From: Patiria pectinifera
Lineage: Eukaryota > Echinodermata > Asteroidea > Valvatida > Asterinidae
Length of the DNA stretch: 64,000 bases
Assembly (NCBI GenBank): GCA_029964075.1
Contig: CM057129.1
Span: 18,405,430 to 18,469,429 of the forward strand
Direction of reading: 5' to 3'
Positions 1,601 through 50,100 of this stretch are shown one piece after another; within the stretch, counting starts at the first letter, position 1, and each line of letters opens with the position of its first letter. The position numbers and the translations under genes were made by a program. The notes below the pieces were generated by a model. That model saw only the letters and a program-made list of their open reading frames with translations, was not told the DNA's origin and did not search any database.

Positions 1601-2748
1601 TTTGTGCTTCTTTCTTCACATCCTTTTTCATTTAATCGTCACACTGAAGAGCATTCTCTTGGGAAAAAAAACGGACAACAATACTATTTTTAACGCTTTG
1701 GTTATCCATCGATCATTTTCATCTCCAAACCATTTCTCTTGCGGAGATAGTCAACTTCCACTTTGGAATCTAAAAGACTTTTCCCAAAGCTGTCTTCTCC
1801 ATCATGCAAATGTTCCTTGTAGATGAAATTATAGCTTTTACAAATAAGGGAGATAATTGGAAACTATATAACTCCGGCGTGGATGTCGCTGCACAAGCAA
1901 ACAACAGCAAGTGCAGAAAGTTGGCATGGTCATAATCACGCAAATAAGAATCAATACGAGCTTGTAATGAAACTGCACCGTATTACTCAGATTTAACAAG
2001 CAGCCATGGGACTGTCTGCCACTATCTGCAGCATTGGACCCATGATCCGCTTCGCCTCAAGAGACTATCGGGACAAGTATGAATAATTCAAAACTGCAAC
2101 TCAACCCACATCCCCGTCGTCGTCTAGTTCAAACAGTGTCCCTTGGGTCTCTGTGACCATTGCTTGCCAATTTTGTGTCCGGCATACACATTAACGACGG
2201 CAGAGCCATGTTATACAAGGTGGGAATAGAAAGGGGGATAGACTGGCCGAGGGGGGGGGGAGGGTAGAGAAAGAGGGACAGCGTAGTATCTCCCCATCCA
2301 ATTTGTATCCTGATCAAGGAAAGGTCATAAATCTGTTCCTTCATGGCAAACACACTTGGACGCTGAGGCAATTAGTTTCAGGAATCAGGATTCTTCTTTC
2401 CATTTCATTGATTTTCTATTTGGATTGTTCACGAGGGGATACTATCACAGTAACTGTTGTTGACTGCCTAGCACAAGCTTAACCAATCGAGTCTGAGTAA
2501 CTACCGGTATTTCCAACAATAGACCAGGCTGCTCTTGCAAGTCAAATTGTTAGATATCTCTTTAATTGTTCTCATTTACTTATACTTATTCTTTTAGTTC
2601 CTTGTTCTGTTAAAGCAAACAATTTGGTGGCTCAATGAGTATGAAAGGTCACTGTATGGACCCTTGCCTGTCACTGAAGGGCAAAACCTTGAACTAATAT
2701 ATTTACCCACTTGAGGCAAAATTTCCTCTTGCTTTAAATTACATTATT

Positions 2749-2901
2749 GGGTGCATACCTATGTTCCCCAAAACCGATGTTCCCCGAAATCCTTACCCTA
2801 TAACCCTAACCCTAACCCTAACCCTATAACCCTAATCCCTAAGGATCTCAGGAACATCGGTATTGGGGAACATCGGTATTGGGGAACATCGGGTAGACCC
2901 C
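2749..2901. mobile_element. Small element: inverted minisatellite around telomere-like core, 8-bp TSD
   Basis: Direct repeats ACATTATT at 2741-2748 and 2902-2909 bound a 153-bp segment. Its ends are inverted (GGGTGCATACC against GGGGTCTACCC read inward). Units related to ATGTTCCCCAAAACCG at the left face inverted units GGAACATCGGTATTGG at the right. Between them (2792-2842) lies a run of CCCTAA and variants. The design matches a non-autonomous DNA transposon; the superfamily is unknown. Confidence 0.7.
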
Positions 2902-2939
2902 ACATTATTTACTCAATACTCATTATTTAAAGTGGGAAC

Positions 2940-10780: not shown

Positions 10781-12650
10781 ACCTATATATGTTTACGGTT
10801 CCCCATTTTTGTCAATGTCTTTGGTCAGGGGATGCCAGACAGAAGCCATAAACCTGTATATGCCATAAGCCAGGGATCACGCCCAAAGTCACGATGCTAT
10901 AGCAACATTAGCAATGCTATAGCAATGCTGCAAACCCTGGAAATAACAAAAAATTCGACTCAAAATGTCAATGTGAAGGACTGTCAGTAGGATTTGTGCA
11001 CAATTAAAGTAAAGGTTTTTTTTTCCGCAGTGGCAGTCATATTATGCTAAAGTTAATGTACAAATCTTGGCAATAGGAGCCATCTAGCTAAGATGACAGC
11101 TCGGTCATTTCAATTCAGTAACAATATGATCTAACAAAAGCTCTAATAGGCTTATCAACAGAGCATTATAATTGTGATAGCTGTCTAAAATGTATTCACA
11201 CATTAATCTTTTCAAAAGCCGGTGTAAGCAACTTAATACAGCTTTAGCGTTTCCAATGATTCTGCAAGCCAAAACTGAGAAGCCACCTGGGGGTTATTCA
11301 TACTCAGTGTAGAGTTAAATCACTGGGGAAATTAAGACTAAAACTCCAGTTAAAAGACAGGTGACAGTCTTTATAGCTTCTAAGATTTCATTGGTCGCTA
11401 CATACTGCTGAACAATAACCGTTTCGCAATTCTGATCGAATGAGTTCAGGGGTGAAAACACATTGCCCAAAGGTTTTCAAATTTTCCCCAGAAAGAAGAA
11501 AAACAGGATACAACACCAGAATGTCAATAATACAGAACCTTCAAATTCACGTTATTTGATTTCCTAAAGAACAAAAATACATCCAACATTCAAAAGCAAA
11601 AAAAAACCAGGAACAAGTTACGATGACGCACGTACTCCCTGACATCAACTGAATAAATTGGGGGAGAGCAAACACACGAGTTGTACACAGCGTGCATGTA
11701 AATTAGCTGCGTTTCTACATGATCGCAGTGATGGTGCAATATATGCCAAGCCCAACGACGGGCGATCGTTTAAACCAAGCTTTTCCAGATCAGTTCCGCT
11801 GACTGATCTACGAATTAATGGCCTGGATTTCGAGGGTAATACGAGCACACAATCCCAGGGGCCAACCCTCAGATGTCATCATGCCATCACAGCTCGTTTC
11901 ACCTGCCTCATCAGACACCACCCCCCCCCCGAAAACCCCAATAAAGCATTTGGCGCTTTGAAGGAAGAAGCGTAGGTCGGTGCAACTGATTAAGCAATGT
12001 CAGATGGCTTTTATACACAGCCAAGTTCAATTCATAAACAACACTGACAGCATTGCTGTGGGATGCAGATTGCCTGCTTGGATTCCTTAATACACTCAAC
12101 TACATGTATTCCTTTAATGCTTAACACCCAAATTGCTTATTAAACAGCAGCTTTATTCAAATTTATTCAAACAAAAATGAGGATTATTTTCACCGTGACC
12201 ACTGGCCAGACACCCTTTTCAGGACAAAACCTCCAAAATCTTGGGTATAGGGAAGGTGCTGCACTTAAAAAATCATAAAACGTGGTCATGCTGATCATAT
12301 CAATGCCAATTCATGCATTAGCTGACATTAAAAAAACCAAGATATATACACTCAATGTGGATCAGCTTTCAAGAGCTCAATACTTAAACTGAATTTTAGA
12401 ACGCTAAAATTGACAATGACTCAATGGCATTTGATAACACATTTAGGTATATGCAGAAGGGTTAAGGCACTATGGGCAATCACATTCCGATTGCTACAGG
12501 GTCTATCTATGGAATTAACACTGTCTCACAATTCAAGTGTGGTTGCATCCATTTTGATCACTCACACAAACGAGTTGTCAGAGCACTTCAATTGTTTTAC
12601 GCAGGTTTCAGGTTCCAGTCTCACTTTTCGTTGTATAATATTTATATATA
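10781..12650. other. No gene recognised
   Basis: It has a small CTATAGCAA duplication near 10900 and a C run at 11920. A 105-codon plus-strand frame at 11658-11975 has no family resemblance or splice context. Nothing else was placed. Confidence 0.5.
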
Positions 12651-12783
12651 TTGGATGGCTTTGAGGTGGATACAAGAATATATTGCACGAGCTATGACAA
12701 TATTGCACGAGTCGAAGACGAGTGCAATATTGTCATAGCGAGTGCAATATATTTTTGTATCCACCGAAATAAAAGCCATTCAA
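12651..12783. mobile_element. Hairpin MITE, 133 bp
   Basis: The ends TTGGATGGCTTT and AAAGCCATTCAA are inverted, and the arms continue through GTGGATACAA, ATATATTGCAC and CTATGACAATATTGCAC to a central CGAAGACGAG loop. The element is bounded by TA on both sides (12649-12650 and 12784-12785), as with Tc1/mariner-type MITEs. It could fold into a near-complete hairpin. Confidence 0.7.
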
Positions 12784-13329
12784 TATTATTATTATTATTT
12801 ATAGCAGGCTGACTTGATCCGCAAGAAATACAATTCAAGACACTGTCATTTCATCTTTTTCGTCAAACTATTTGAAGCTGCCACACTGTTGACAACAGTG
12901 AACGTATACCTGGCCTTCTGCGCGCACTGCATGCGCGCAGCGTGTTCCGTGTTCGACGGTACCCGCGCGCTACGCTCTGTTGAGTGGTTGACAACTCAGC
13001 CTCGACTCCATGGGCGCGTGCGCGTTCCTTACACTAACCCCTGGCCCTGATGATGACGTAAATGACGCTGATTGGCTTTTCACAGCGTACTGCGCGCGCA
13101 TTTCGAAGATTGCACGTCGGGCGCGCCCATAATGCGCTCGCGTGCTTTACACGTAACGTCACGTACGAAAAAAAATGTTATTCAAAAGTCGCGATGCCTG
13201 TACGATATGGATTATGGCAGCCTCGTTTTTCGCTAAAAAAAACCCCTGTATCTGTGGTTGTAAAGGCACGAAAGGGGTACGTACATTTAATACAAATCTT
13301 TGCTAAATAACGCAACGTCCAAACGTTAT
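12784..13329. other. GC-rich stretch with GCGCGC words, no gene recognised
   Basis: From about 12910 to 13160 the DNA is rich in GCGCGC and CpG. Frames of about 80 codons exist on the plus strand (12814-13050, 13062-13310) but show no known motif. Confidence 0.4.
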
Positions 13330-15364: not shown

Positions 15365-16130
15365 GGGGGCAGTACTTGAAAAAGTCAGTTTTTTTTCCCA
15401 ACGATGGTTGGTCGACCACCGTTGGAAATTGATACAAAAATTCCGCTTTTCTTGAAGATGACAGCACATCACACCAGGTGCCATGATTTCACAGGATGCT
15501 TGAGACTTAGACACTTACAATCAGGTAAGGCATTTCATAATAATTTGGTAGTTTGTTTTTGATGTTTGCAAATGTTGCATATTTATACCTTAACTGCAAT
15601 CATCCTCCAAGAGGGATCATGAATAGCAAACTACCTACCCAACAAGTAAGAATATATTTGAAGTCATTGTTACTGATATTTGACTGGCAAATTACAAAGT
15701 TGCAAGGCAACAGGGACAAGAAGAATGACATATGTGAACAACACAATTTATGTGCATTGTCCATGCTTGTACGACCTGGGGCACAATTTTTTCATCTGAA
15801 TGTATATAACCCATAGTTAATATTCTTGTGAGAGTCCGCAAGTTTTTTTCGCCACCACTGCAGTTCAATCATGTTCTCATCCTATAAAATAATGCGGGAA
15901 AAACCCAAAACTAAAACCTGAAAAAGAAAAAAGTGATTTTTGGAGAACAAAATAGGGTGCAATATTGCAAGACCACTTGATCTCAATGACAAACAGCGCC
16001 AATGCTGAAGGAAGCTTTCGAGAGTGCCATTGATGCTGTCTCGTGTAGATCCCCAACACGTTGCACACACGAAAGTTAAAACTTAATCATGCAATATCTG
16101 CAGAGGAGACGAATGATGTGCCCTTAACGG
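15365..16130. other. No gene recognised
   Basis: A GGTTGGTCGACCACCGTTGG palindrome occurs near 15406. Otherwise AT-rich DNA without assignable features. Confidence 0.45.
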
Positions 16131-16540
16131 GGACATCTCTATAGTCCGAAGTCCCATTGGTCCGAAGTCCCATTGGTCCGACGTCCCATTGGTCCGAAGT
16201 CCCATTGGTCCGACGGCCCATTGTTCTATACGTTCCATTGGTATAAACGTCCCATTGGTCCGACGTCCCATTGGTCTGACGTCCCATTGGTCCGACGTCC
16301 TATTGGTCCGAAGTCCCATTGGTCCGACGCCCCATAGGATTAGGGTAAGTGTTAGGGTTAGGGTTAGGGTCAGTCAACCTGAACAAGAGGAACTACACAG
16401 TATTATGTTTCGGACCAATGGGACTTCGGACCAGTGGGACTTCGGACCAGTGGGACTTCGGACCAGTGGGACTTCGGACCAGTGGGACTTCGGACCAGTG
16501 GGACTTCGGACCATCAAGACGTAACCCCCTTATCTGGTTC
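16131..16540. repeat. Inverted 17-18 bp minisatellite arrays around telomere-like core
   Basis: About ten copies of GTCCCATTGGTCCGAA(C)G run from 16143 to 16335. About six inverted copies (GGGACTTCGGACCAGT) run from 16410 to 16512. Between them is TTAGGGTAAGTGTTAGGG and two more TTAGGG (16338-16372). The outer ends GGGGACATCT and GGGGTTACGTCT (read inward) are related, so the whole behaves like an inverted-repeat element. A CTTAAC/CTTATC pair flanks it imperfectly. Confidence 0.75.
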
Positions 16541-22140: not shown

Positions 22141-24520
22141 AGAACTGATACATGTAGGCTATAGTGTTCTATAGTCACTGGTTCAAATCCCAATGCAGTC
22201 TATTTCCTCATTCAACCTGTAGTCAGTGGGCTTGTGGAGGCCCATGCATGTTAGTGTTCTATAGTCACAGGTTCAAATCCCACTGCAGTCTACTTCCTCA
22301 TTCAACCTAATAGTCAGTGGGCTTGTGGAGGCCCATGCATGTTAGTGTTCTATAGTCACAGGTTCAAATCCCAATGCAGTCTATTTCCTCATTCAACCTA
22401 ATAGTCAGTGGGCTTGTGGAGGCCCATGCATGTTAGTGTTCTATAGTCACTGGTTCAAATCCCAATGCAGTCTATTTCCTCATTCAACCTAATAGTCAGT
22501 GGGCTTGTGGAGGCCCATGCATGTTAGTGTTCTATAGTCACAGGTTCAAATCCCAATGCAGTCTATTTCCTCATTCAACCTAATAGTCAGTGGGCTTGTG
22601 GAGGCCCATGCATGTTAGTGTTCTATAGTCACAGGTTCAAATCCCAATGCAGTCTATTTCCTCATTCAACCTAATAGTCAGTGGGCTTGTGGAGGCCCAT
22701 GCATGTTAGTGTTCTATAGTCACAGGTTCAAATCCCAATGCAGTCTATTTCCTCATTCAACCTAATAGTCAGTGGGCTTGTGGAGGCCCATGCATGTTAG
22801 TGTTCTATAGTCACTGGTTCAAATCCCAATGCAGTCTATTTCCTCATTCAACCTGTAGTCAGTGGGCTTGTGGAGGCCCATGCATGTTAGTGTTCTATAG
22901 TCACAGGTTCAAATCCCAATGCAGTCTATTTCCTCATTCAACCTAATAGTCAGTGGGCTTGTGGAGGCCCATGCATGTTAGTGTTCTATAGTCACAGGTT
23001 CAAATCCCAATGCAGTCTATTTCCTCATTCAACCTAATAGTCAGTGGGCTTGTGGAGGCCCATGCATGTTAGTGTTCTATAGTCACAGGTTCAAATCCCA
23101 ATGCAGTCTATTTCCTCATTCAACCTAATAGTCAGTGGGCTTGTGGAGGCCCATGCATGTTAGTGTTCTATAGTCACAGGTTCAAATCCCAATGCAGTCT
23201 ATTTCCTCATTCAACCTAATAGTCAGTGGGCTTGTGGAGGCCCATGCATGTTAGTGTTCTATAGTCACAGGTTCAAATCCCAATGCAGTCTATTTCCTCA
23301 TTCAACCTAATAGTCAGTGGGCTTGTGGAGGCCCATGCATGTTAGTGTTCTATAGTCACAGGTTCAAATCCCAATGCAGTCTATTTCCTCATTCAACCTA
23401 ATAGTCAGTGGGCTTGTGGAGGCCCATGCATGTTAGTGTTCTATAGTCACAGGTTCAAATCCCAATGCAGTCTATTTCCTCATTCAACCTAACAGTCAGT
23501 GGGCTTGTGGAGGCCCATGCATGTTAGTGTTCTATAGTCACTGGTTCAAATCCCAATGCAGTCTATTTCCTCATTCAACCTGTAGTCAGTGGGCTTGTGG
23601 AGGCCCATGCATGTTAGTGTTCTATAGTCACAGGTTCAAATCCCAATGCAGTCTATTTCCTCATTCAACCTAATAGTCAGTGGGCTTGTGGAGGCTCATG
23701 CATGTTAGTGTTCTATAGTCACAGGTTCAAATCCCAATGCAGTCTATTTCCTCATTCAACCTAATAGTCAGTGGGCTTGTGGAGGCCCATGCATGTTAGT
23801 GTTCTATAGTCACAGGTTCAAATCCCAATGCAGTCTATTTCCTCATTCAACCTAATAGTCAGTCGGCTTGTGGAGGCCCATGCATGTTAGTGTTCTATAG
23901 TCACTGGTTCAAATCCCAATGCAGTCTATTTCCTCATTCAACCTAATAGTCAGTGGGCTTGTGGAGGCCCATGCATGTTAGTGTTCTATAGTCACAGGTC
24001 CAAATCCCAATGCAGTCTATTTCCTCATTCAACCTAATAGTCAGTGGGCTTGTGGAGGCCCATGCATGTTAGTGTTCTATAGTCACAGGTTCAAATCCCA
24101 CTGCAGTCTATTTCCTCATTCAACCTAATAGTCAGTGGGCTTGTGGAGGCCCATGCATGTTAGTGTTCTATAGTCACAGGTCCAAATCCCAATGCAGTCT
24201 ATTTCCTCATTCAACCTAATAGTCAGTGGGCTTGTGGAGGCCCATGCATGTTAGTGTTCTATAGTCACAGGTTCAAATCCCAATGCAGTCTTTTTCCTCA
24301 TTCAACCTGTAGTCAGTGGGCTTGTGGAGGCCCATGCATGTTAGTGTTCTATAGTCACAGGTTCAAATCCCAATGCAGTCTATTTCCTCATTCAACCTAA
24401 TAGTCAGTGGGCTTGTGGAGGCCCATGCATGTTAGTGTTCTATAGTCACTGGTTCAAATCCCAATGCAGTCTATTTCCTCATTCAACCTGTAGTCAGTGG
24501 GCTTGTGGAGGCCCATGTGC
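22141..24520 (+). repeat. 91-bp tandem satellite, 26 copies
   Basis: The unit ATAGTCAC(A/T)GGTTCAAATCC to GTTAGTGTTCT repeats at 22171, 22261, 22352 and on to 24442. Most units are 91 bp; variants with CCTGTAGTC for CCTAATAGTC are 90 bp. Copies are almost identical, so the array is young or homogenised. GGTTCAAATCC fits the tRNA B-box consensus, and TAGTCAGTGGGC, 50 bp before it, resembles a tRNA A box. There is no reading frame. Confidence 0.95.
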
Positions 24521-25714: not shown

Positions 25715-27200
25715 TCGTCAATGCACACCCCTTCTTCCTTTAAAGAGACAGTCTGATATAAAAAGGCTAGTTTGGGAGCGCGTAAAGGTGTTATGACTCA
25801 ATTGCCATAATTTTTTTTATGTTCAACTTGCAAATTGAATTACGTGTAAGAAGAGGAAAACAATAAAGATTTTGCGTGTGTTTTTTTCCCCATTTTTCTT
25901 CCAGCACTATTCTTTGAGACTTTGGGCCTTATTGTTTTGTTGCCCCGTCCTTGACTAAGCATCCTGAACACGCCCCTTTCAAACAAACTCATCATTTGCC
26001 AACCATGAACTCAGAAAACAACTAGGCGTCCATTAATTCAGCCTGTAAACCGCTTGAGTTGAAAACAATTGTTTAGTGGCACCAGACTTCATGTAACGGC
26101 CTCAATTGTAAGGAAATGGGGCTTGTCCAGAAATCTTATCTCATCCGGCAAATTTTTTTTCTTTCGTTTTAACATTCCCTGAAAATGTTACGAAATCCAG
26201 ATGTTTATCGACCCCGACCAAAAAGCAGGTTAGCCCTGCCTATCAGGAATGGGGTATGTAGGGGTTGTCACACTGGTCAGTGTTGTAGGACTCGGACTCG
26301 GGACTCGGACTCGAGTCCGGACTCGAGTCCGGACTCGAGTCCTTTTTTCAAGGACTCGGACTTGGACTCGAGTCCTTTGCTCAAGGACTCGGACTCGGAC
26401 TCGGACTCGGACCCCAAGGACTCGAGGACTCGGCTTCGAGCCCGGCTCGAGTCCGGCAAAATCGGGTCTTTTTTAGGTGTTTTATTTCAATTATTTTATG
26501 TCTTTCACCTTGATTTGGTTTTGCTGTGGAACCGAATTCCGCTATTTCCGTTAGTTAGAACTTTTCATATTACAGAAGACTTTTTCAGTTTCTTTTAGTC
26601 TTTACATTATTTTGTAGACTTGATCTGTGGCTCTGCCTTATGTTGATAGTTTGTTTAACAGTTATGCTATTTACAAGTTTTTTAACCTTTACTGTAAGAA
26701 AGGGAAATAAAGAAAAGCAACAAATGTGAAGAATAATTACTGAAGATCATATGCTAATTGTAATTGTCAATTTACTGTAGTATCTGCTTCAATATCTGTA
26801 GGCTTCTACGCATACTAAGGTAAAAGTTAATGCAAGTTTTTTTAAATGTACATTATAAACATAATGAATGCATTGCATAGTGCATACAACCAAAACCATT
26901 ACCCCTTCTCTATCACCTGACATTTGATAATGACATTTTGAAAACGTTAATATAGTATTGGTGAACCGCGACTTGAATTTGATACATAAGGACTCGGACT
27001 CGGCCTCGAGTCCATTTTTCAAGGACTCGGACTCGGACTCGGACATCAAAAATTGACAAGGACTCGGACTCAGACTCGAGTCCTTTGCTCAAGGACTCGG
27101 ACTCGGACTCGGATGAGGAGGACTCGACTACAACACTGACACTGGTATAATGTTGCAAAATACAACGATTTTGGCTTCAAAGAACTGATACATGTAGGCT
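25715..27200 (+). repeat. Duplicated segment R, copy 2 (interrupted by hAT-like element)
   Basis: 25715-26277 matches 21548-22106, and the match resumes at 27139 with ACACTGGTATAATGTTGCAA. The gap is exactly the transposable element at 26278-27138, so the duplication predates that insertion. Confidence 0.85.
26278..27138. mobile_element. hAT-like non-autonomous element with GACTCG arrays
   Basis: Perfect inverted ends CAGTGTTGTAG and CTACAACACTG are flanked by ACACTGGT on both sides (26270-26277 and 27139-27146), an 8-bp target duplication. The paralogue at 22097-22111 shows the empty site. Near both ends (26285-26455 and 26990-27125) are arrays of GGACTCGGACTCG, inverted relative to each other. 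The 860-bp element has no transposase; the SDSD and TRTR peptides it can encode are repeat artefacts. Confidence 0.9.
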
Positions 27201-27206
27201 ATAGTG

Positions 27207-27560
27207 TTCTATAGTCACTGGTTCAAATCCCAATGCAGTCTATTTCCTCATTCAACCTAATAGTCAGTGGGCTTGTGGAGGCCCATGCATGTTAGTGTTC
27301 TATAGTCACTGGTTCAAATCCCAATGCAGTCTATTTCCTCATTCAACCTAATAGTCAGTGGGCTTGTGGAGGCCCATGCATGTTAGTGTTCTATAGTCAC
27401 AGGTTCAAATCCCACTGCAGTCTATTTCCTCATTCAACCTAATAGTCAGTGGGCTTGTGGAGGCCCATGCATGTTAGTGTTCTATAGTCACAGGTTCAAA
27501 TCCCAATGCAGTCTATTTCCTCATTCAACCTGTAGTCAGTGGGCTTGTGGAGGCCCATGT
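27207..27560 (+). repeat. 91-bp tandem satellite, 4-copy paralogue
   Basis: Units at 27211, 27302, 27393 and 27484 are the same as in the 26-copy array, with the same left and right flanks. The copy number differs 26 to 4 between paralogues, so the array expands or contracts. Confidence 0.95.
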
Positions 27561-28778: not shown

Positions 28779-30041
28779 AGTCAGGTGGCATATGGTCGGA
28801 ATCGTGACCGACTGGTCCAAAGCACCAAACTTGGCAGATAGATTCTTATAGCCCTAGAGAATATATTTAGAAGGGGTGACACCTGAAATTCTTTTGGGAA
28901 GGGTGCCTAATTTGCATAAATCGTTAATCCCTGCCGTGTAATATATTTATTCCCATATTTGGGTATATTTTTATTTTTTTATTTTTTTGAAAAGTGTATT
29001 TTGGTGATTCTACTTGCATATTCTTACTTCAATAACATTTTGTAAAACATAAGTGACTGAATAATTAGGAGGACATAGTAAAGAACCAAAATTGCTACTA
29101 TTTTACCCTCAAGTTACGCGCATTTAACTTTTCCTCAGATATCATCAACTTGTCTTGCCAAACGTGGGTATTGATGAGCTTCAAATTCACAAAGTTACTT
29201 ACTGGCATTGTTACCCTAACAAAAATAAGTGGAAAATCAAGTGAAAATTGATAACATCTTGATGTTTAGCCCAAAAGACCAAAAAAAGGAGAGAAAATGT
29301 GGTGTCCATAAATTGGGCTAGTACGGGAAGCCGGGTATTAAACGTGGGGACTTGAACAAGTTCAACGAAATCCCCCTCATAAGAGATTATTGTTGTTTAC
29401 AATAATTTTGTCTGCGCAACGTTTTCTCAACAATAATTTTGGGAATTTCCTTGTACTTGCTCCTGTGTTCCATATTAGGCAACCCTTCACCTACTTGTTA
29501 GACTAATTTATGGACACCTCGTTTTTCCCCAGTTCTTGTTTTCTGGGCTTAATATCACAATGTAATCATTGTTCACATGATTTTGCATAAGGTTTTTATA
29601 GGGTAACTGTACCAGTAAGCTACTTGGTGAATTTGGAGTTCATCAATGCTGATGTTTGGCAAGACTAATTGATAATATCTGGAGACAAGGTAAATGGGCG
29701 CAATTTTAGGGCATAATAGTAGCTATTTTTGGATCATTACTATGTCCTCATAATTATTCAGTCACTTAAATGCTTTGGAAAATGTTATTTAAGTAAAGAT
29801 ATGTAAGTAGAATCCTCAAAATACACTTTTCAAAAAAATAAAAAAATAAAAATATACCCAAATATGGGAATAAATATATTACACGACAGGGATTAACGAT
29901 TTATGCAAATTAGGCACCCTTCCCAAAAGAATTTCAGGTGTCACCCCTTCTAAATATATTCTCTAGGGCTATAAGAATCTATCTGCCAAGTTTGGTGCTT
30001 TGGACCAGTCGGTCACGATTCCGACCATATGCCACCTGACT
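28779..30041. mobile_element. 1.26-kb foldback element with 440-bp inverted arms
   Basis: The left arm 28779-29222 begins AGTCAGGTGGCATATGGTCG. The right arm 29598-30041 is its inverse and ends GACCATATGCCACCTGACT. Arms share CACCTGAAATTCTTTTGGGA and CCCATATTTGGGTATATTTT and differ by scattered changes and indels. The 375-bp loop holds a complete copy of the GGTGTCCATAAATT element. No transposase or clear target duplication was seen. Confidence 0.85.
29301..29518. mobile_element. GGTGTCCATAAATT MITE, complete copy in foldback loop
   Basis: Inverted ends GGTGTCCATAAATTGGGCTA and GTCTAATTTATGGACACC-like, read as GACTAATTTATGGACACC at the right, bound 218 bp. It is nested in the loop of the foldback element, and its truncated twin lies 1.1 kb upstream in the same orientation. 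Confidence 0.7.
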
Positions 30042-38100: not shown

Positions 38101-41100
38101 CACTGTGGAGTAAAAGAGTTCCACCTGGAACTGAGATAAATGAGGTTCTGTGCAGGGTTGTAGTACGGCCTATCATCAGTCAACTTGACTCATATCTTGT
38201 CACAAACCAATTCGGGCGATTCACAATGCAGTGCGCCACCAACAGTTTGCCGCGGAGAGTTCAATTTTCTCAGTGCATTGTGGGAGATGGTCGACAAATT
38301 CGCAGCGCGGGACATTTGAAAGTGTTCGTTTTTTCCGTTTAGTAGTTTCGTAAGCGTATGATTCGAGGATCTGTTTGCCCTTTTTTCCCCTTTTAATCAA
38401 TATGGTGTTTTTTATGAGCCGGCAGTACGCTATGCCCCAATCTATAACAAAATTAGCTCAAGTTATCTACTGACACTGATTCAAATGGGTCATGTTTGAA
38501 AAATGGACTCTTCAATGGCAAACTCTTGGCGGCGCACTGCATTGTGAATCGCCCAAATTGAAAAGATGATTACAACAGCATGAGATAAAACAATGACGAA
38601 GGAATGCCTTTGTCACAGTTCATATAAATAGCTGTTTACTCGACTTGAGACTGGATGACTTGTAACGGACTTGTGATTGACTTGTGGCTGACTTGAGATT
38701 GACTTGTGATGAGGCTTCGACTTGTGATTCTAAGTTTGACAAACAAAAAAACCTCTTGCAATTCGGGCGATTCACAATGGAGTGCGCCACCTAGAGTTTG
38801 CCATGGAGAGTCAACTTTTTAAGTTTATGGTCGACAAAACATGGCCCATTTGAATGAGTGTCAGTAGAAAATTTGAGCTAATTTGTTATAGATTTGGGTA
38901 TAGCATTTTATCAAAAATCACCGTATTGATAAATAGAAAAGAAAAGGGCAAACGTATACTCGAATCATACGCTTATGAAACTATTGACCGGATAAACGAA
39001 CAATTTCAAATGTCCCGCGCTGTAATTGTCCACCATCTCCCACAATGCACTGGGAAAAATGAACTCTCTGTGACAAACTCTTGGTGGCACACTGCATTGT
39101 GAATTGCCCGAATTCTTTGCCATCCCAAAACCTAAAATCAGGACCGATTAGTAAAAGTCTACCTCAACGGATTGCTCCGATCTGACTGTTATCAAATAGA
39201 CTCTCCCCTAATTGGACTCTTTGAACTAGTGTAGGTTTGCGGTAAACACCATGTGCAAATCTATCTTGGGAAGATGTGTGGTTCTGAAAAGAACAGGTTG
39301 GTTGGAATAGTTTTACAACCAGCCATTTTCTTTTGGAACCACACATCTTCCCAAAAGAGATTTCTACATGGTGTTACCGCAAACCTTTCACAAGTTCATA
39401 CAACCACCATGCAAAGTTTGAAATCTTACTTAAATTGACTCTTCTCAAACATTGTTTCTCTGTACCTAAATTGCCATCATCAGTCAGGGAAGATTCTATT
39501 TCGGAACAGTTTATCAACCTGTACAATATTGAAGAACTTTGAAAAAGTTAATTACATTTGTTCCTGAAGAATTGAAAGGGATTGCATTCTGTTCTATTTC
39601 ACAAAATAATAGCAATTTATCATTATTAACTTCGGGGCCAATCGTCCTTACTCGCAGCAGAAGCTGAAATGAAAAGAACACAGCTACAGAGTGGTCAAGC
39701 TGAAGGCATGTAAAGGTGCTTCAGGCAGTCGCCATGTCTCTGACCATGAAGCACAGCCAGATGGAAAGTGTAATTTTTTGGCGGAGGGAGGAAAACCGGA
39801 GAACTCAGAAAAAAATCCTAGCGGCACAGGAGAGAATCAACAAGCAACTCTTCTCACATATATGACCCGAGCCAGGAATCAATCCCGGGCCACAGCGGTG
39901 AGGGGCGAGTGCTTTATGCACTAAGCAACCCATCCCACCCATGGTGGTGTTGTTCTGTACAGCCTGTTTCAGCATTTTAATCCTCTACTCACCTGTAACT
40001 CAGCTTCATGCGCTACCTCTAAAGCTATCTGCAAGTTTCGGTGCCCATTGGCCAATTTATCTATCAATGGGAAATACAGAAGAACATTATTATCGTAACT
40101 ATTCGAGAAGAAAAATAGACAGAATTTAAATATTGCATCCTCATCCTCAGGTTATTAGAGAGGTTTTACAAATGAATGGATACGGTTAGCGCGCTGGATA
40201 GATCATCAATTTGTGTGGTCTTGAAACGTCATACACAACCTCGCTATTTGCTAGGTGTGTACACAGCACAGATATATTCAAATCAATTCGGCATTTTATT
40301 TTCACATTGACATCTTCAGAGACAATTCATACAGAAATAAAAATAAATATGTATAAACAAAACATTCTTCACAGACAGTATGTAATTAAGTGTAAATATT
40401 AAATGATGTCAACATAAAGGAAAAAGGTGAAGCACTGATTTTATACCTTTCCCTAGGACAGAACAAAACTTAAACAACTACACACGGACTAAGACAGGAC
40501 AATAGGTTTAAGAGTGAGACCCGGTACAATATGTAAAATAATGACTAAGCAAATCAGAAAAGAAAATGTTTTTTAAGTTAAGTATAAGTATTGATGATTG
40601 ATATTTTCCAATATTAGGGACCATTAGGAATGGTGTGGGCGCAGGATACGTGGCCTATTAAATCATCATGCATCTCAATATTTTGATGTGAGATCCACAA
40701 TGCTGAATATATAAGAAGGGATTTTTTTTTATTACGGCTCGCGAGAGGCACATACTATAAATATAGCTAGAGGGGTATTTCAAAAAACCATGTAAAATTG
40801 TTGAACAAATTTATAATTTCGTTCTTGATTTGATTGACTTTGTGACCGAAAGGTATTTATTAATGGGGCTTAGGGCCCGATTGCCAATAATGGCCTTCAT
40901 TATCCGTGTCCAGGCCCCAAGCCGGTTTGAACGTACTTGTTTAAGACCGGCTAAGCACATATTTGTTCCATTATTGTTAATTAGTTTGTTAGAAACGGCA
41001 AGTTTTATAAAAAGCAATGAACCAGATTGATCAATCAGTCAATAACAAATGTGAAATTCAGCAAACACTGTGACTTTTCAGGAATTTGGAAGTGAACTGA

Positions 41101-44100
41101 ATAAATTTAATCTTTGTATTTCCATTAGAGAGAGACAGGCACCAAAAGAAATACTGATGAAGGAGTGCCAATAAGCAGTGGGAGTATTACCTAGAAGGAA
41201 CACATCTGGTAGTTGTCTCTCATCTTGAGATGAAGAATCAGGAATCTGAACGACGGGTTGGGACTTTGGTTTCATTATTTGCTTCAGATCCTCGGCTCGA
41301 ACCATGTACTCTTGCACCTAGGGAAATTGAGAAAACAAATGCACCCAAAAACGTTATTTGATATTGTTTCGAAAATATTAAGGATAGGATGGCAATGGGT
41401 GTGGGAATGGGCACAGGAATGGGCATATGGGCATAGGAACGAACAGAGCATGGGCAAGTGAAAGGGTTCAGGTGCAGGCACTGGTACCAGCACCTTCACA
41501 GGCATGGCATGGGCAAGGACAATTGTGCAGACACGGGCATACAGGGGTGAGTAAACGAAAACTAGTTCCAAATGGCAGGACCAATTTTTGAATGAAGTTT
41601 TGCCTGTAGCACTTTCAAAATCTAGGATATGAAAGCCCAGTCATTAAAGCTTTCTTTTAGTACAAGAATCATTAAGATCACTCGTGTACTTTTCACGTTA
41701 TGAAATTTTGAACACAAACACTGTTTTAAAGTTCTGTCCACGGATCACAAAAAAGTAAGTGTTCTTTCAGCAAAATGAAAACAATTCTCATAGGGATGCA
41801 AGTGAGTTGTCTTTATTTTGCTGAAAGAACACGTACCTGTTTTGTGATCCTTGGACAGAACTTAACGGTGTTTGTGTTTAAAATACCGTCACTTGAAAAG
41901 TACATGAGTGATTTGAATGATTCTTGCACTAAAAGAAAGCTCATTTGTGGGCTTTCTTAGGCTAGACTTTGAAAGTGCTATAGGCAAAACTTCATTCAAA
42001 AATTGGTCTTGTCATTTGGGATTTTTTTTTTTACTCACCCTGTATAGGCATGGAAAATGCTGCAGGAAGGAGCAAGGGACAGGACAGGCCAGACGGGATT
42101 GGAAGGGAAGGAAAGGGACTTGACAGCAACTTTTACGTTGATAAATTTAACATACCCTGGATCTGAGTACATCTTTCTTCTGTGCGTCCCTCTCAACTAT
42201 TGAACAAAAGAATGGACAAATGAATATCAGTCAAACAATTACCTCCGTCATGTACCAATTTTCCCCACACCTGAAGCCAAGAAGAGCTACCGGTGTTGTG
42301 TCATTGCTCAATTCAATGGGATCGGGTTATAATGTTTAGGAGTGCTGTGGTCCAGTGGTTACGGTCTTCGACCCATGCTCCATGGTACATGGGTTGGAAC
42401 CCTGACGGGGAGCATGGTGCTTGTGTCTTTGGGCAAGACACTTTACTACAATTGCCTCTCTCCATCCAGGAGTATAATTGGGTACCTGTGAAGGTAGAGA
42501 CCAGATTGCGCTGATCTCGGCTACAGAAAAGTGGTCTCACGACCTGATGAACAGGGGTAATAACTGTGAAGCATTTTGAGATCTAGCTTTGGTGGAAAGT
42601 GCTATATAAGCGACACACACTATTTTCATTGTTTCTGCAGTTTGACTTCCCAAAGATCTGCCGATCCCGTAATTAAATTCATTCAACTTACATTGAATTG
42701 CTGGCAAGAAGTACTGAAGGGATTCACAGTAGAGCTGAATGGCTGCTTTGGTATCGCCTGACGTATCCTTCTCAACTGCTTGGACTACCAGTGATTTCTG
42801 ACAGGCAAAGAAAATAATACATGTATTAAGTATAGGAATAGGTAAGAACATAACGGTTCAATTCAATTCAATAAAGTTTCCTTTCAGCACAACTAAAAAA
42901 CTTTAAAAGTAAAATTTGTCTTCCCCCATATGCATATAAGAAACATTAATATATATATAGAAACACATATGAATTAACAGTATGCGTATGGTATGTGCAT
43001 TAGTGACGTGCATCATGTCGGGTTGACGAGGCCAAACCGACACGAGACATATATTTTATAAACCGAATCCGAACCAAAACCGAACTGGACTACCTAAAAC
43101 CGACCCGACCTGACATCAATTCAAAGAAAACCGACCCAAACTGAATTTTCTTTAGGTTCATTTCAGTTTATGTCGGTTTATTTCGGGTTTTTTCAAAATG
43201 ACTTAACCGACCTGACCCGACCCAAAAATTGCAAACGCAAAACCGAATCCGACCCGACCCAACTAAAATGATGGACAAACCTACCCGACCCGAAGTCGGT
43301 TTCGGGTCGGTTTCAGTTTCGGGTTGGGTTGCCACAACATTAATGTGCATCCCGCGCTCAGCGCTAAAAATCTTCTTTTGTCAATGCAATGGTGCAGGAA
43401 TAAAATGTTTAAATTTTATCAACCCTTTAAAACCACCCACGTGCCGGGCTCTCAACCAATAGAAATGGGTAAACTGTCTTATGAATCATATTTCATAAAT
43501 ACCGAAGACAGTTTACTCATTTCTATTGGTTGAGAGCCCGTCATGTGGCAAGTTTTAAACAGTATATAAAGACATGGCTGGCTGGTCTTAAACACTTTTC
43601 CTGTGTCACAATATAAAATTTTGACTCCTATGAAATCCGGTGCCAGCACCGATTTATTGGTTGAACCTTCGCAATCCTCACATAGGCATGCGCAATACTA
43701 CCACTGAGTCAGTATTTTATAGCCCTAAAAACACACCACACTGGTACATCTGCATTGTGCGCCTCGATCACACAGTACGCCCAACGCGCCCGTCAATCTC
43801 CATATAAGGAGTTGTGTTTTGTTGATCAAATTTGTTGAAAAGGTATAATTTTTGAATTGTTTTGACTTTGGACCGAAAGGTTTTGATGTTTTTTACCGAA
43901 TAAATAAGCGCTTGGTCGGTATCTAACACTATGTTTAACCCTAACTCCCCAGCATAATTTACGAGGAACTGTACCCATCCTGGCAAATTCCAACATCCAC
44001 ATAAGAAATCGTACACACACACTTTTGGACTTAGTTTCTGGAGGTATGCCAAACCCAATGTAAAAGACCATCTGTTTAGGGGTACTGTACCTATTCTAAC

Positions 44101-47100
44101 AGATTTAAACAAAACCTGCTGTTGAACTTGGATGGGTTGAGTTTGGTTATGTTAAAGACCAGTTGGAGTCTTGATTTGCCTTTGGCTTGGGTAATTATCA
44201 GAACCAAGACTCCAACCGGTCTTAAACATAGTGTTAAAAACCGCTGAAGCACACATTTATTCCCTTATTAAAACCATTCACAGGTAACACACAGTAAAAT
44301 GCCTCATAACACAGTCTGTTTGAGCAGCTAGTGACTGGACGATTGTGACAACACTGGTCAGAGATCCTAAAGTAAGAAGATTCCAGGTCACTTAACGCCA
44401 GAATAACTTCAGGCATGCAACTGGGAAGTCACAAAAAAGAGGAAATTCAAATCTTTCCAAGACTTTGTACAGTGATTTTCTATTTTGAATGGCACACATG
44501 CCTATAACTTACTGCTTTCTCAAGTGACTCTGCACAGGGAAAGTGCTGCAGATCGATAAACGGATGCTCAAAGAACTCAGCAAAGTCTATCCTGTCCCCC
44601 GGGTCTCTCTGGAGAAGTTTGAGGAGAAGGTCTCGGCACCTATCTGAGATCGGGACGGCGTCTGGAATCTGAAACAGACAAATCAGGATCAAAATTTCAG
44701 CAGTCAAACCCGTGCATGTGTGCATTCTACAATAGGGCGTCTCCTGAATAAGCCTGTCGCCAGAGCTTGGGTGGGCCGGCGCGTGGGCCCTGGTGAGCAA
44801 CTGCCTCCCTCCCCCCATGGGCTTAAAATTAATAACATGTACAATTAAGTTTTTTCCTGGGATGTGCCCCCTAGCTGACACCGTGCCCCCCTCCCAAAAT
44901 CTGGAGCTGGCAACGCGTTGCTGCTCGTAAGTGATCACATAACATCATCAGGGTGAGTCAAAAAAAGCGAAACCAAATTTCGGGACTATTGTTTTAGTGA
45001 AGTTCTGCATGTAGCAGTTTCAAAATCTAGTATATGAAAGCCCAATTCATAAGCTTTCTTTTATACCAGAATCATTCAAATCACTTGTGTACTTTTAAAG
45101 TTGCGGAATTTTAAACACCGCTTTAAAGTTCTGTCCACGGATCACAAAAAAGGTGTGCGTTCTTTCAGCAAAACGAAACAACCACCGTTTTAAAGTTCTG
45201 TCCACAGATCACAGGAAGGTAAGTGTTCTTTCAGCAAAACGACAACAAATCAAAAAGGGATGTGTGTGAATTGTGTTTGTTTTGCTGAAAGAACTGGAGC
45301 AAACTGGAAGACTGCCACAGCCAAACTTATGTATAATCCTGCATGGGTTGCGCAGGATTCCACGACTTTTTCATGAATATTTTTTGGAGTACCAGCTTTC
45401 CATGACTCTTTGTAAAAACAACAAAATTAAATTACTGTTCCGTGACAGTTTGAAATTCGAGAAATTTCCAGGATTTTACTGTGACTGTGGGAATCCTGAG
45501 TCACAGTAGCCTACATTCATCAACCCTACCATCTCCTCAAAAACCATCATTTTGGGAATAAAGTAAGACAAGAAATTAACTTACCATTATTTACAAACAC
45601 TTCTCCCCCAAAAGAAACCTTATCTCACAAAAAATGTTTCTAGAGGGAGGGGAAGCTGATCTTCTAGAGCATACTGTACACATTGAAATATTGTACATTT
45701 ACGTACCTCTATTGGTTTTGAACTTTTGATCTTTTCTGCTAATTCGGTGAAAGTTTTGGAGGCGAAAGGGGCGTGGCCAAAGAGACACTCTGTTGAATAA
45801 AAATAGGTCCAATTTATTCCTTGTCAAAAAACATTAGTTAGGGAGAATGTGAAGTGCTGCTCTGTAGAACCATGGTCAATTTGCAGCACAGTATTTCCAA
45901 GCTGAACATATCACAAAAGTTATTTACTATAAGGCCAAAAAAAAAAAAATAAGTCGGTCTTGGGGTGGTCGCGCGCGTTTTTTAATCATGCGCGCGTCAA
46001 TCCTCCCAAAATGTTCTGCTTTCTGCTCCAACTCAACGCTCTCCCCTATATCCGCTTTTTTTTTTTTTTTTTAAACCCCAAGAAAGGGAGTGGGTGGGAC
46101 CAAGGCAAATGGCACATGCACGAGCACCAAGGCATGATGGACATTTGAGATGTGTACAAAAGGAAAAAAAAAAACCAAACCACCCCACCTTGTCAATCCA
46201 ATCCAAGAAAAAAAAAAAAAAAAACAACCGCATCCGGCGTCAATTGGGGAACTTTGACGAATATATTTTTTTTGGCCTAATACTTGTTATTTATTTCTGG
46301 TAACGAAACCACAGATTCGTCAAAAGCACCCAAGGCACTTTGCAGTTCGCAGGCCTGACAAAACCTGTAGAGAAAAGGCAATGAAATGACAGTTTTAGAA
46401 GTGGGAGGAAAAGTCCAGAAGACTATATTGGAGAATACCTAGAGAATCAGGTAGGGACTGAAAACAATTGAAGCATCGAATGGATATCGTAAAAGTTGTG
46501 TCATTTCTCTTAAAGGTATAGGAGTATTTATAATTACCCTGAAATATACCAACCAAATTAATGAGAAAAACCTGCTCAAAACATAACTGCCATGCACCCT
46601 GCTTAAGATGTTGCTTCCAGCAAACAACAGAGCATAATTATCAGTGTTGTAGAAATCGACAGAGGTGGCAGCAAGTCATTTTTTGCAAGTCCAAGTCAAG
46701 TCACAAGTCATTGTTTGCAAGTCCAAGTCAAGTCACAAGTCATTAGGTCTAGTCACAAGTCAAGTCACAAGTCATTAGGTCCAGTCACAAGTCAAGTCAC
46801 AAGTCATTAGGTCCAGTCACAAGTCAAAGCACAAGTCATTTGGTCTGAACACAAGTCAAGTCACAAGTATCTTTGTCCAAGAACACGTCAAGTTGCACAT
46901 TATTTTGTCCAGCTGTAATAAGCTAAAAGAACCTGGCGTCAACTTACGAGTTATTTTGAAGGTGCCTCCTTAATTCCCCTTTTTCAATGTGTTGCTAATA
47001 CTATTCTTGTAGCTTATCACATATCTGTCGGATATTAGCCCTTTGTATACTTTAATAAATTTACTTAACACTGTAGAAATAAATGTTGAGATGACATGAA

Positions 47101-50100
47101 AAAAAGACTTCACTCACTCGATTACATGTAGTATACTAACACTTGTTCAATTTTCATGTATACTAAACGCCTACCAATGGGTTAGGCTATCCGGTATTTT
47201 ACATGCAATTGACAAAGGGCTGCTTTCTTTTCATGAAAGGTTCCTTTCAAAGTTTGTTCATTCATTACATTAAGCAAGAGACTTGGTCATTGAAAACTGT
47301 GTAGTTTGTTGTGACAGTCTTATTGAAAACTTTTGAAACTAGTGGGAACTATTCATTTTACTGGATTTAGCGTCTGACTTGGGTTGGTAACAAGTCATTT
47401 TTTGCAATCCCAAGTCAAGTCACAAGTCATTGTTTGCAAGTCCAAGTCAAGTCACAAGTCAAAGCTGGTATTTACAAGTCAAGTCACAAGTCACAAAAAT
47501 AGCGACTCGAGTCCGACTTGAGTCCAAGTCACATGACTCGAGTCGGCAACTCTGGAAATCGAGTCCAGGACTTGGACTCGAGTTGGACTTGAGTCACATT
47601 TTTCATGACTCAGATTCGACTCAAGTCACATTGGAAAATGACTCGGACTCGACCATGATGACTCGGACTCCAGCTTGGTGACTCGTGACTTGAGTCACAT
47701 ATTTTCATCGAAAGAAAAAAACATAATGTTACGGACTTGTGCGACGGGAGTAGCATTCTTTTTTAATCCACAGACAAAACATGGCGCCACGGAAAATCGT
47801 AGCCAAGGGCCGCGCACGCACGCCTAGTGCCTGCATGACGCCTGCATGACGAGCACCAGGGCCAGGTGTCATGCCAAAAAGTATCCGGTATTAAAAGGGG
47901 AAACACATTTTGGGCTTAAAACAAAGTAAACTGTATAAACACTGGGTAAACACTGGGACAGAATGGATGACAATGAAAAATAATTTAAAAAAAAAATGAT
48001 TAGTCTGGTGAACAACTAAGAACAAGTGACTTGAGACTCGGACTCGAGGCTTGTGACTCCAGACTCGGACTCAAGGCTTGTGACTCGAGACTCGAACTCG
48101 AGGCTTGTGACTTGAGACTCAGACTCGGACTCGAGGCTTGTGACTTGAGACTCAGACTCGGACTCGAGGCTTGTGACTTGAGACTCAGACTCGGTCTCGA
48201 GGCTTGTTTCTTGAGACTCAGACTCGGTCTCGAGGCTTGTGACTTGAGACTCAGACTCGGACTCGAGGCTTGTGACTTGAGACTCAGACTCGGACTCGAG
48301 GCTTGTGACTTGAGACTCGGACTCGACGTTGGTGACTCGACTACACCACTGATAATTATCCTGTTAATACATTGTCCGGTTAATACAGTCAGCATGCTTC
48401 TACTAGGAATAGTGAATATCAAAATGAAATTAACTTTTCATTTTACGGATATATGGACAATTACTCAACTTAGAATGTACATGTAGTTTGCATTCACAGA
48501 CTTATGAACAGACACGTTCCATCCACCATGCTCTACTGTTCGTTTGTATTGCTAGCCAATGCCACAAACACATACAAAACATGCAGTGGTATGCACTTAC
48601 AGCACGGCCTTCAAAAATTCAGTTTAATGGTCTTAGTGGACCTCTACCGACGATAGTGTGAAGTTGGTCGTGTTCAAAATCACAGCGCTTCAACTACAAA
48701 TAACATTAGCAATGTTTTCCACAATGTTTCCACCAGCATGCACTTTTGTTTTGTCCATAAGGAAAAACAACAAAAGATTTTTATACAAAAATAAGCAAAA
48801 TATTAAAATAGTAAAATATTTCAAGTTTTTCTTGTTAATTTGGCCTTGAAGTTGATGGACACTTCATAATATGAATATTTTATTATGCAAATTTAAGCCC
48901 CACCCTCTTTCCACACGGGTTGTTTATCACTAAAAACAATATACTTGTACTTTGCGCATGCATGTGAATCCAAATACACTTGCAGGGATCTTTTCATTTA
49001 TATTACTAGCCAGATGAATTAAGAAGGACTTTCAAAAATGGATTTACAGATTATGTCGATCTGTCAATGAGTATGGTCTTGAAAACGTGAATTTGGTCAT
49101 TTACAAAATTCAAACAAATCATGTGTAAAGCAATTCATTTGAAAAGCAATAGAAACCTCTCTTCAAGTTGTTTTCATTCTAATAATCACTTTGTAGCATG
49201 TGGGTGAAAATTCTAACATTTTAATAGGCAACGTACAAGGCATTCCATAATATTACTTTTACATTAGATCCTATTTTGAAATGACATTCAACTACTGATC
49301 AGCAATTAGAATATTCAAATGTGCAAAGCACCGTCGATTTGTTTTTGCAATGCATACAACAATAACGGGTGGGGTGTGTATTCTGTATGAAGGACTATCA
49401 ACCAACAACTTGACCAAGGCTAGTTTCGTTGCGGTGCGGTCAACTGAGGCTGGCCTCATGAAATCCCCAGAATGAGCAGATGTTTTCTTTGTTTTTGGAA
49501 ATGAAGCCAATGAGCAAAAACTACAACACTCTAGCTGCTAAGCACCTTGCTTAAGATGATGCTTCCAGGAAACAAAAATGCACGGAGAATAATGTCCTGT
49601 TAATTACAGTCAGCATGCTTGTAAAAATACCGACTATCGAAATGAAATTAAATTTTCATTCACACAAATCGATCATACACAGATGGACAATTACCATACG
49701 GTACATCGGTAACCATCCTCTCCCGGTAGTTCGAGATTAAACGACCATATTAAAATACTTACACATTAATATCGCGATCGGACAAGAACGAATTTTAATA
49801 GGGCCTCTACACAATCACAGCTTACTTTATTTAAATTAGTCACTAATGTCACCCAAACAACTAGATCTTGCAAAATAATGAAATACATAGAGACACTGGA
49901 CAGTGGACTAATTTGGTACGAAACTATGATGACTTAATCTTTATCGGATGCACAGAAGTTGAGTTTTACCTCCATATCCTAATGAAGTTTGGGGACATTT
50001 GGGACGACACCGTCTGGCCATGCCGTATACATATTCAAATTTATCATGAATAAGGCCCACCCACTTTACAATGAATGTGGGCGCCGCGGAGCCAATTCAA

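Follow-up and report, generated by a model that had tools for sequence, protein, structure and literature searches.

A probable foldback-type transposon with inverted 16-bp arrays around a TTAGGG core in the sea star Patiria pectinifera

Introduction

The TU elements of the sea urchin carry 15-bp tandem units in their inverted ends and have 8-bp duplications. Tm1, a Mutator/Foldback family of root-knot nematodes (Gross and Williamson 2011, PMC3169594), and Tetris, whose end-borne tandem repeats give rise to satellite-like arrays (PMC4079207), were both assigned to Mutator by their authors. In Galileo, tandem repeats in the long ends hold transposase-binding sites, and binding by the THAP domain was tested; according to the same authors, such binding is untested for Foldback and Phantom (PMC3688188). 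The present analysis concerns a window of 64,000 nucleotides from the sea star Patiria pectinifera (the whole stretch from 18,405,430 to 18,469,429 of contig CM057129.1, assembly GCA_029964075.1, forward strand), which contains two elements, E1 and E2, with inverted arrays of a 16-bp unit around telomere-like hexamers; a third family, E3, occurs in the same genome. E2, together with E1 and E3, is quite probably a non-autonomous, cut-and-paste DNA transposon of the foldback type, a reading that includes mobilization in trans by a Mutator transposase, slippage in the arrays and an inherited core.

A preliminary description, made from the letters of the window alone, had placed E2 at 16131..16540 as a minisatellite with GGGG-type ends, independent of the similarly built element at 2749-2901 and unrelated to it in unit sequence, and had proposed slippage next to a hot spot as a general mechanism behind the common layout.

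Structure of E2 and evidence for its transposition

E2 inserts as a unit between target duplications of 8-9 bp and has two distinct short ends with one motif; subterminal inverted arrays of 16-bp units enclose a TTAGGG-bearing core of fixed orientation (Table 1). In the 613.5-Mb assembly (1020 contigs) within which the window lies, the search with E2 gave at least 286 matches, and 40 of 400 first-look candidates were scored. Thirty E2 loci, 30 E1 loci (searched with window positions 2740-2910) and 19 loci from a (TTAGGG)4 search formed the data set; five E2 loci without ends were dropped, leaving 74 scored copies. Duplications of 8 or 9 bp that directly abut the ends are exact in 36 of these copies and have at most one mismatch in 50, as compared to 0 and 6, respectively, among 5366 mismatched flank pairs serving as control. 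Counted over the 66 distinct flank pairs, 30 are exact (17 of 9 bp and 13 of 8 bp) and 43 have at most one mismatch. Shorter and longer lengths (3-7 and 10-14) have a mean flank identity of no more than 0.24-0.31, and the duplication size is near-fixed at 8-9 bp, as expected of a miniature inverted-repeat transposable element (MITE). Nested copies occur in both directions: in L023, an E2 copy flanked by an exact 9-bp duplication has entered an E1 copy, and an E1 copy lies inside the TTAGGG tract of an E2 copy (L040), where the duplication falls in the hexamer repeat and is weak evidence. This reciprocal nesting argues for independent mobility of the families.

The ends are family-specific. Most E1 loci have the ends GGGTGCATACCTATG and GGGGTCTACCCGATG, whereas E3, found via the (TTAGGG)4 search, has the unit TTCCGACACCCCTATG and the ends GGTGACTGC and GGTTACACC. 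Genome-wide, the end patterns have 121 (E2), 638 (E1) and 1156 (E3) exact matches, and reversed controls gave 0 for each. The ends of one copy differ from each other: within the 100 listed places out of 121, each of the nine pairs of adjacent, convergent E2 ends has one GGGG and one GGTT end, and all 17 E3 pairs (counted by eye, among places printed with letters) have one CTGC and one CACC end. After an end filter, which five of the 74 copies failed, copies measure 350-1430 bp (E2), from 135 bp (E1) and 138-185 bp (E3). All three families are short, non-coding and repeated in many copies with inverted ends, like MITEs, and their inverted ends consist of short tandem units in variable number next to duplications within the 8-10-bp range, like foldback elements.

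In the window copy of E2, the unit was found 15 times at up to 3 mismatches, always inside E2, versus 0.53 matches expected from shuffles. With up to 4 mismatches allowed, 10 units are counted in arm A, which is irregular around 16222-16250; the variant CACTG is present in 5 of the 6 arm B units and in none of arm A, and the forward-strand reading closes with CATCAAGACGTAACC after arm B. The inverted arms match over up to 94 nt at 86% identity, and the single-strand fold has -131.4 kcal/mol (z -18.2 versus 100 shuffles). Both 15-base ends are unpaired in this fold and therefore are distinct ends rather than further array. The only frame of at least 130 aa across E2 runs through the arrays from stop to stop.

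Table 1. Features of E1 and E2 in the window (TRF, Tandem Repeats Finder)
Feature	Position	Strand	Remarks
E2 element	16129-16526	+	398 bp, non-coding, probable foldback MITE; ends and duplication match genome copies
Left target-site duplication of E2, CCCTTAAC	16121-16128	+	7/8 identical to 16527-16534
GGGG-type end of E2, GGGGACATCTCTATA	16129-16143	+	terminal motif with zero mismatches; GGGGACGTCTCTATA in most copies
E2 arm A, array of 16-bp unit GTCCGAAGTCCCATTG	16144-16335	+	TRF period 16, 11.9 copies, 84% matches
TTAGGG tract of E2 core	16340-16369	+	4 hexamers in window copy
Family-specific E2 core, ending in ACACAGTATTATG	16370-16408	+	~39 bp, non-repeat; recurs in E2 loci
E2 arm B, inverted array	16409-16513	-	TRF 6.6 copies, 98%; 6 units
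GGTT-type end of E2, reverse complement GGTTACGTCTTGATG	16512-16526	-	from genome-copy comparison and motif scoring
Right target-site duplication of E2, CCCTTATC	16527-16534	+	8 bp, one mismatch versus left
E1 element, sister family	2749-2901	+	16-bp unit TTCCCCAATACCGATG, CCCTAA core
Left target-site duplication of E1, ACATTATT	2741-2748	+	exact, 8 bp
Right target-site duplication of E1, ACATTATT	2902-2909	+	exact, 8 bp

Elsewhere in the genome, four E2 GGGG ends of the same orientation lie ~28-36 kb apart (C18:12456762, 12484275, 12517340 and 12553695), which suggests a tandem segmental duplication of one insertion.

The TTAGGG core

All 30 E2 loci have units in both orientations around a recognizable core. 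At least one hexamer is present in each of them (a single one in L028 and L029) and in each of the 30 E1 loci; because both sets were gathered with whole elements as queries, this co-occurrence of arrays and TTAGGG is biased upward. A search with (TTAGGG)4, which is blind to the arrays, yielded overlapping matches in both orientations (741 forward and 300 reverse), of which some may be telomeric. The 30 loci fetched from it represent 19 distinct tracts, which head the list and come from C1 and the beginning of C2. Every one of the 19 sits in an element (8 E1, 1 E2, 10 E3); about 12 independent insertions are represented, since six E3 tracts share flanks, as do three E1 tracts. Summed over both ends, these copies have 0-11 mismatches in 38 positions, in contrast to 14-19 at 37 of 38 control positions; the remaining control (9 mismatches, L085) falls at a further E3-like end. 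In two of the 19 (L080 and L094), one end is unrecognizable, with 9 of 19 mismatches. The tract has one orientation per family in all 69 copies passing the end filter, and the sequence adjoining it, TAGGATTAGGG, is common to E1 and E2 as judged by eye. The presence of the tract in every family, each with its fixed orientation, and the common adjoining sequence in E1 and E2 are best read as inheritance. The core may thus be an inherited spacer or loop that spreads with the element and would thereby seed interstitial telomere-like tracts. One E2 end pair, with both ends perfect, is only 91 bp apart (C5:17886875-17886965) and too short for a core; known from its end positions alone, it suggests that the core is dispensable. 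C6:17985343-17985496 is a further candidate for a copy that lacks the core.

The six E3 copies with common flanks (L070, L071, L072, L074, L076 and L078) are one insertion present in copies of a larger dispersed repeat. The tRNA-like look of a stretch of this repeat was not borne out by ARAGORN (bacterial settings), which found 0 genes in 6 of 6 loci.

Much of the preliminary description agrees with these data. The inverted 16-bp arrays around TTAGGG are borne out by the TRF arrays, the excess of unit matches and the fold, the same succession of array, core and inverted array is found in E1, and other copies have conserved ends and cores. Arrays and TTAGGG occurring apart elsewhere, which it had named as evidence to the contrary, were seen in none of the 30 E2 loci, 30 E1 loci and 19 tracts, the 91-bp end pair being a possible exception. 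The bounds have to be replaced by those in Table 1, fixed by the ends and the flanking duplication, and GGGG describes one end of E2 only, as the other begins with GGTT.

Change of the arrays over time

Arm counts are available for 28 of the 30 E2 loci; the other two (L016 and L034), in which the core has deletions, are without an oriented core. Unit number varies widely, as the preliminary description had anticipated: arm A, beside the TTAGGG tract, has 9-73 units and arm B 3-39, and the two counts are uncorrelated (rho -0.20, p 0.31). Two units are identical in 37.4% of pairs drawn from one arm, in 7.5% of pairs across the two arms of an element and in 11.7% when the same arm is compared between elements. 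In L023, one variant is present as 38 identical units; elsewhere in the 30 E2 loci it occurs only once, in L017. A C22 insertion that was copied by segmental duplication (L011-L014 and L019; one shared site, flanks 95.0-99.8% identical at ungapped positions) measures 460-716 bp from one fixed anchor to the other; its closest two copies, L012 and L013, are set apart by a single arm B unit. Since copies of one insertion differ in unit number, the E2 arrays change in place after insertion. Replication slippage or unequal exchange, promoted by the hairpin-capable inverted arms, might let the arrays and the hexamer tract (1-14 hexamers per element across families) grow and shrink arm by arm. With many insertions of two arms each, one of them segmentally duplicated with differing unit numbers, the family offers a system for watching minisatellite growth.

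At C15:11046781-11049562, E2 array matches continue for kilobases, resembling the seeding of satellite DNA by Tetris (PMC4079207). This stretch and the 73-unit arm of L038 are candidates for the birth of a satellite from a transposon arm.

Relationship of the three families

The six consensus ends of E1-E3, written by eye, share 9 invariant columns out of 21 (GG, C6, C11, AT13-14 and TCC17-19). None of 20,000 shuffles reaches this terminal motif, with or without the first two G, the match having been noticed before its test; with only the E1 and E2 ends, p is 0.00065 and rises to 0.005 when the first two G are left out. The unit period is 16 bp in each family, and the terminal motif extends into the first unit. 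The units of E1 and E2, compared with free rotation and strand, are alike at 9 of 16 positions, a value reached by 4518 of 20000 shuffles and not significant. A possible homology of the core flanks of E2 and E3 (p about 0.05 and 0.32) was set aside.

Alternative explanations

That E1 and E2 are two independent minisatellites which converged on one layout through a general slippage mechanism, as proposed initially, agrees with their units, which by themselves are indeed not significantly alike. The ends running into the first unit, however, are significantly alike in all three families, so that independence finds no support and the families are not unrelated: the common 16-bp period and the terminal motif allow common descent to explain the common layout, and convergence appears very unlikely. 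The idea of the TTAGGG tract as a slippage hot spot driving array growth finds no support either, tract length and unit number not being significantly correlated (rho 0.27, p 0.15, n = 30 including L016 and L034, scored as 0 units). The tracts could also have been placed at double-strand breaks by telomerase or break repair, with inverted arrays growing beside them. The abundance of (TTAGGG)4 in this genome would fit, but all tracts read are inside elements, and the family-specific ends, the 8-9-bp duplications, the fixed orientation and the nesting imply that the tract travels with the element; this disfavoured origin is given hardly any credence. In the part of the genome read, interstitial TTAGGG tracts are transposon cargo rather than products of break repair, which may surprise specialists. 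Selection might act on the core if mobility, escape from silencing or pairing of the ends depends on telomere proteins attaching to it or on its folding into a G-quadruplex. A tract kept in all three families, in fixed orientation and between differing core flanks, speaks for such a role, whereas copies with a single hexamer and the end pair too short for a core, of which the positions are known, speak against it, and common descent explains the sharing; we consider selection improbable. A similarly unlikely proposal is that a transposon superfamily has made the host telomere repeat a working part of its core, for example by recruiting telomere-binding proteins or as a quadruplex within the loop of the hairpin, and that almost every interstitial telomere tract in this genome stems from it and is thereby mobile. 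Should the core have a function, transposon biology would be connected with telomere proteins.

With regard to the mobilizing enzyme, a Mutator (Phantom/Foldback-like) transposase would recognize the E-type ends in trans, and the 16-bp units would act as extra binding sites for it. The genome contains 30 matches to Mutator-like elements (MULEs) with open frames of up to 644 aa, including a 605-aa frame with a MULE domain in L099 (E 4.3e-15). Several observations weigh against this picture of E2 as a Mutator-mobilized foldback element. A transposase-bearing copy with E-type ends was not found in the parts of the genome compared; no MULE match lies within 100 kb of the E2 end places (100 of 121 listed, E2 places alone compared); and L099-L102 have no convincing E-type ends in their 1.5-kb flanks. 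As the comparison linked no MULE gene to E-type ends in the parts that it covered, the enzyme is one that we infer. At most one mismatch in the duplication was not attained in 24 of the 74 copies, some of them with misassigned ends (e.g. L018, L066 and L081), and ends were not found in 5 of the 30 E2 loci, which represent the single C22 insertion with an apparently lost GGGG end. The variant CACTG, found in arm B of the window copy, is shared by the same arm of L017, L033 and the C22 copies, so that part of the array variation predates these insertions and not all of it arose in place. Finally, a duplication of 8-9 bp alone also fits hAT, P or Merlin. Movement of the same foldback MITE by such a superfamily (P/Galileo-like, hAT or Merlin) instead of Mutator is possible, if rather doubtful: the duplication has 8 bp in some copies instead of 9, and Galileo is a foldback-like element of the P superfamily with repeats in its long ends (PMC3688188), whereas long MULE frames are present, the transposase search having covered this family alone.

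A 16-bp array near the MULE frame of L099 (460-568, CAACTCGTACCTTGGA, 6.8 copies) was considered as a mark of an autonomous copy and rejected, since it lies outside the stretch common to L099 and L102. Candidate places for such a copy are C2:849713-851047, with E3 end matches 1.3 kb apart, and C11:11315627-11318333, where two E2 ends are separated by 2.7 kb, although another end lies nearer between them.

Other features of the window

A 91-bp unit forms two tandem arrays, at 22162-24517 (25.9 copies) and 27202-27559 (3.9 copies), with 98% matches; it includes GGTTCAAATCC, which we take to resemble a tRNA B box. GACTC-rich arrays with units of 6-33 bp and multiples lie at 26293-26433, 26988-27111 and 48034-48325. 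On the reverse strand, the frame at 61573-62061 holds an exon resembling that of the kinase ULK3, which is also its best PDB match (E 2.2e-16), and 44480-44944 is a further kinase-like candidate frame. Long inverted repeats at 28779-30041, 60713-61120, 38209-39114 and 41558-42029 (272 nt at 96%, 113 nt at 96%, and others) are possibly other MITE-like elements; no exact 8-10-bp duplication was seen near their ends. In all, seven inverted repeats of the window besides E1 and E2 were checked for one; six have none, and the seventh (12635-12795) has an 8-bp duplication, TATTTATA, in AT-rich sequence. Two E2 units in tandem gave 8 matches in viral contigs, near chance by a rough, uncomputed estimate, with no similar inverted arrays in the ~110-140 bp around each.

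Comparison with known systems

The closest published match to E2 is Tm1. Like E2, Tm1 has MITE-like members, averaging 431 bp, and composite ends with 1-9 tandem units of ~14 bp that vary between ends and copies; its terminal 7-bp motifs are asymmetric, to which E2 and E3 have an analogous asymmetry only, and its duplications are 8-10 (mostly 9) bp in 45 of 53, compared to 8-9 bp in E1-E3 (PMC3169594). E2 differs in its 16-bp unit of other sequence and in having up to 73 units per arm, and the Tm1 motifs A1, A2 and C differ from the ends and units of E1-E3 by inspection, without alignment. One transposase-bearing Tm1 member is described in M. incognita, unlike E1-E3, for which none was found in the parts compared; the word stem 'telomer' is absent from the main text of the Tm1 paper (PMC3169594).

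Tetris of Drosophila virilis is, like E2, a non-autonomous foldback element, with 8-10-bp duplications, and unlike E2 it has repeats named TIR-220, ends of up to 1,735 bp and three structurally complete copies (PMC4079207). Galileo, of the P superfamily, shares foldback-like ends with internal tandem repeats, but these ends exceed 1 kb and the element has its own transposase (PMC3688188). A literature search covering titles and abstract openings, with subscription papers mostly outside its reach, returned no foldback element or MITE with a TTAGGG core. The TU elements are likened to E2 in anatomy, by their tandem-unit inverted ends and 8-bp duplications. E1-E3 are most likely a variant form of foldback MITEs, unusual in their telomeric core.
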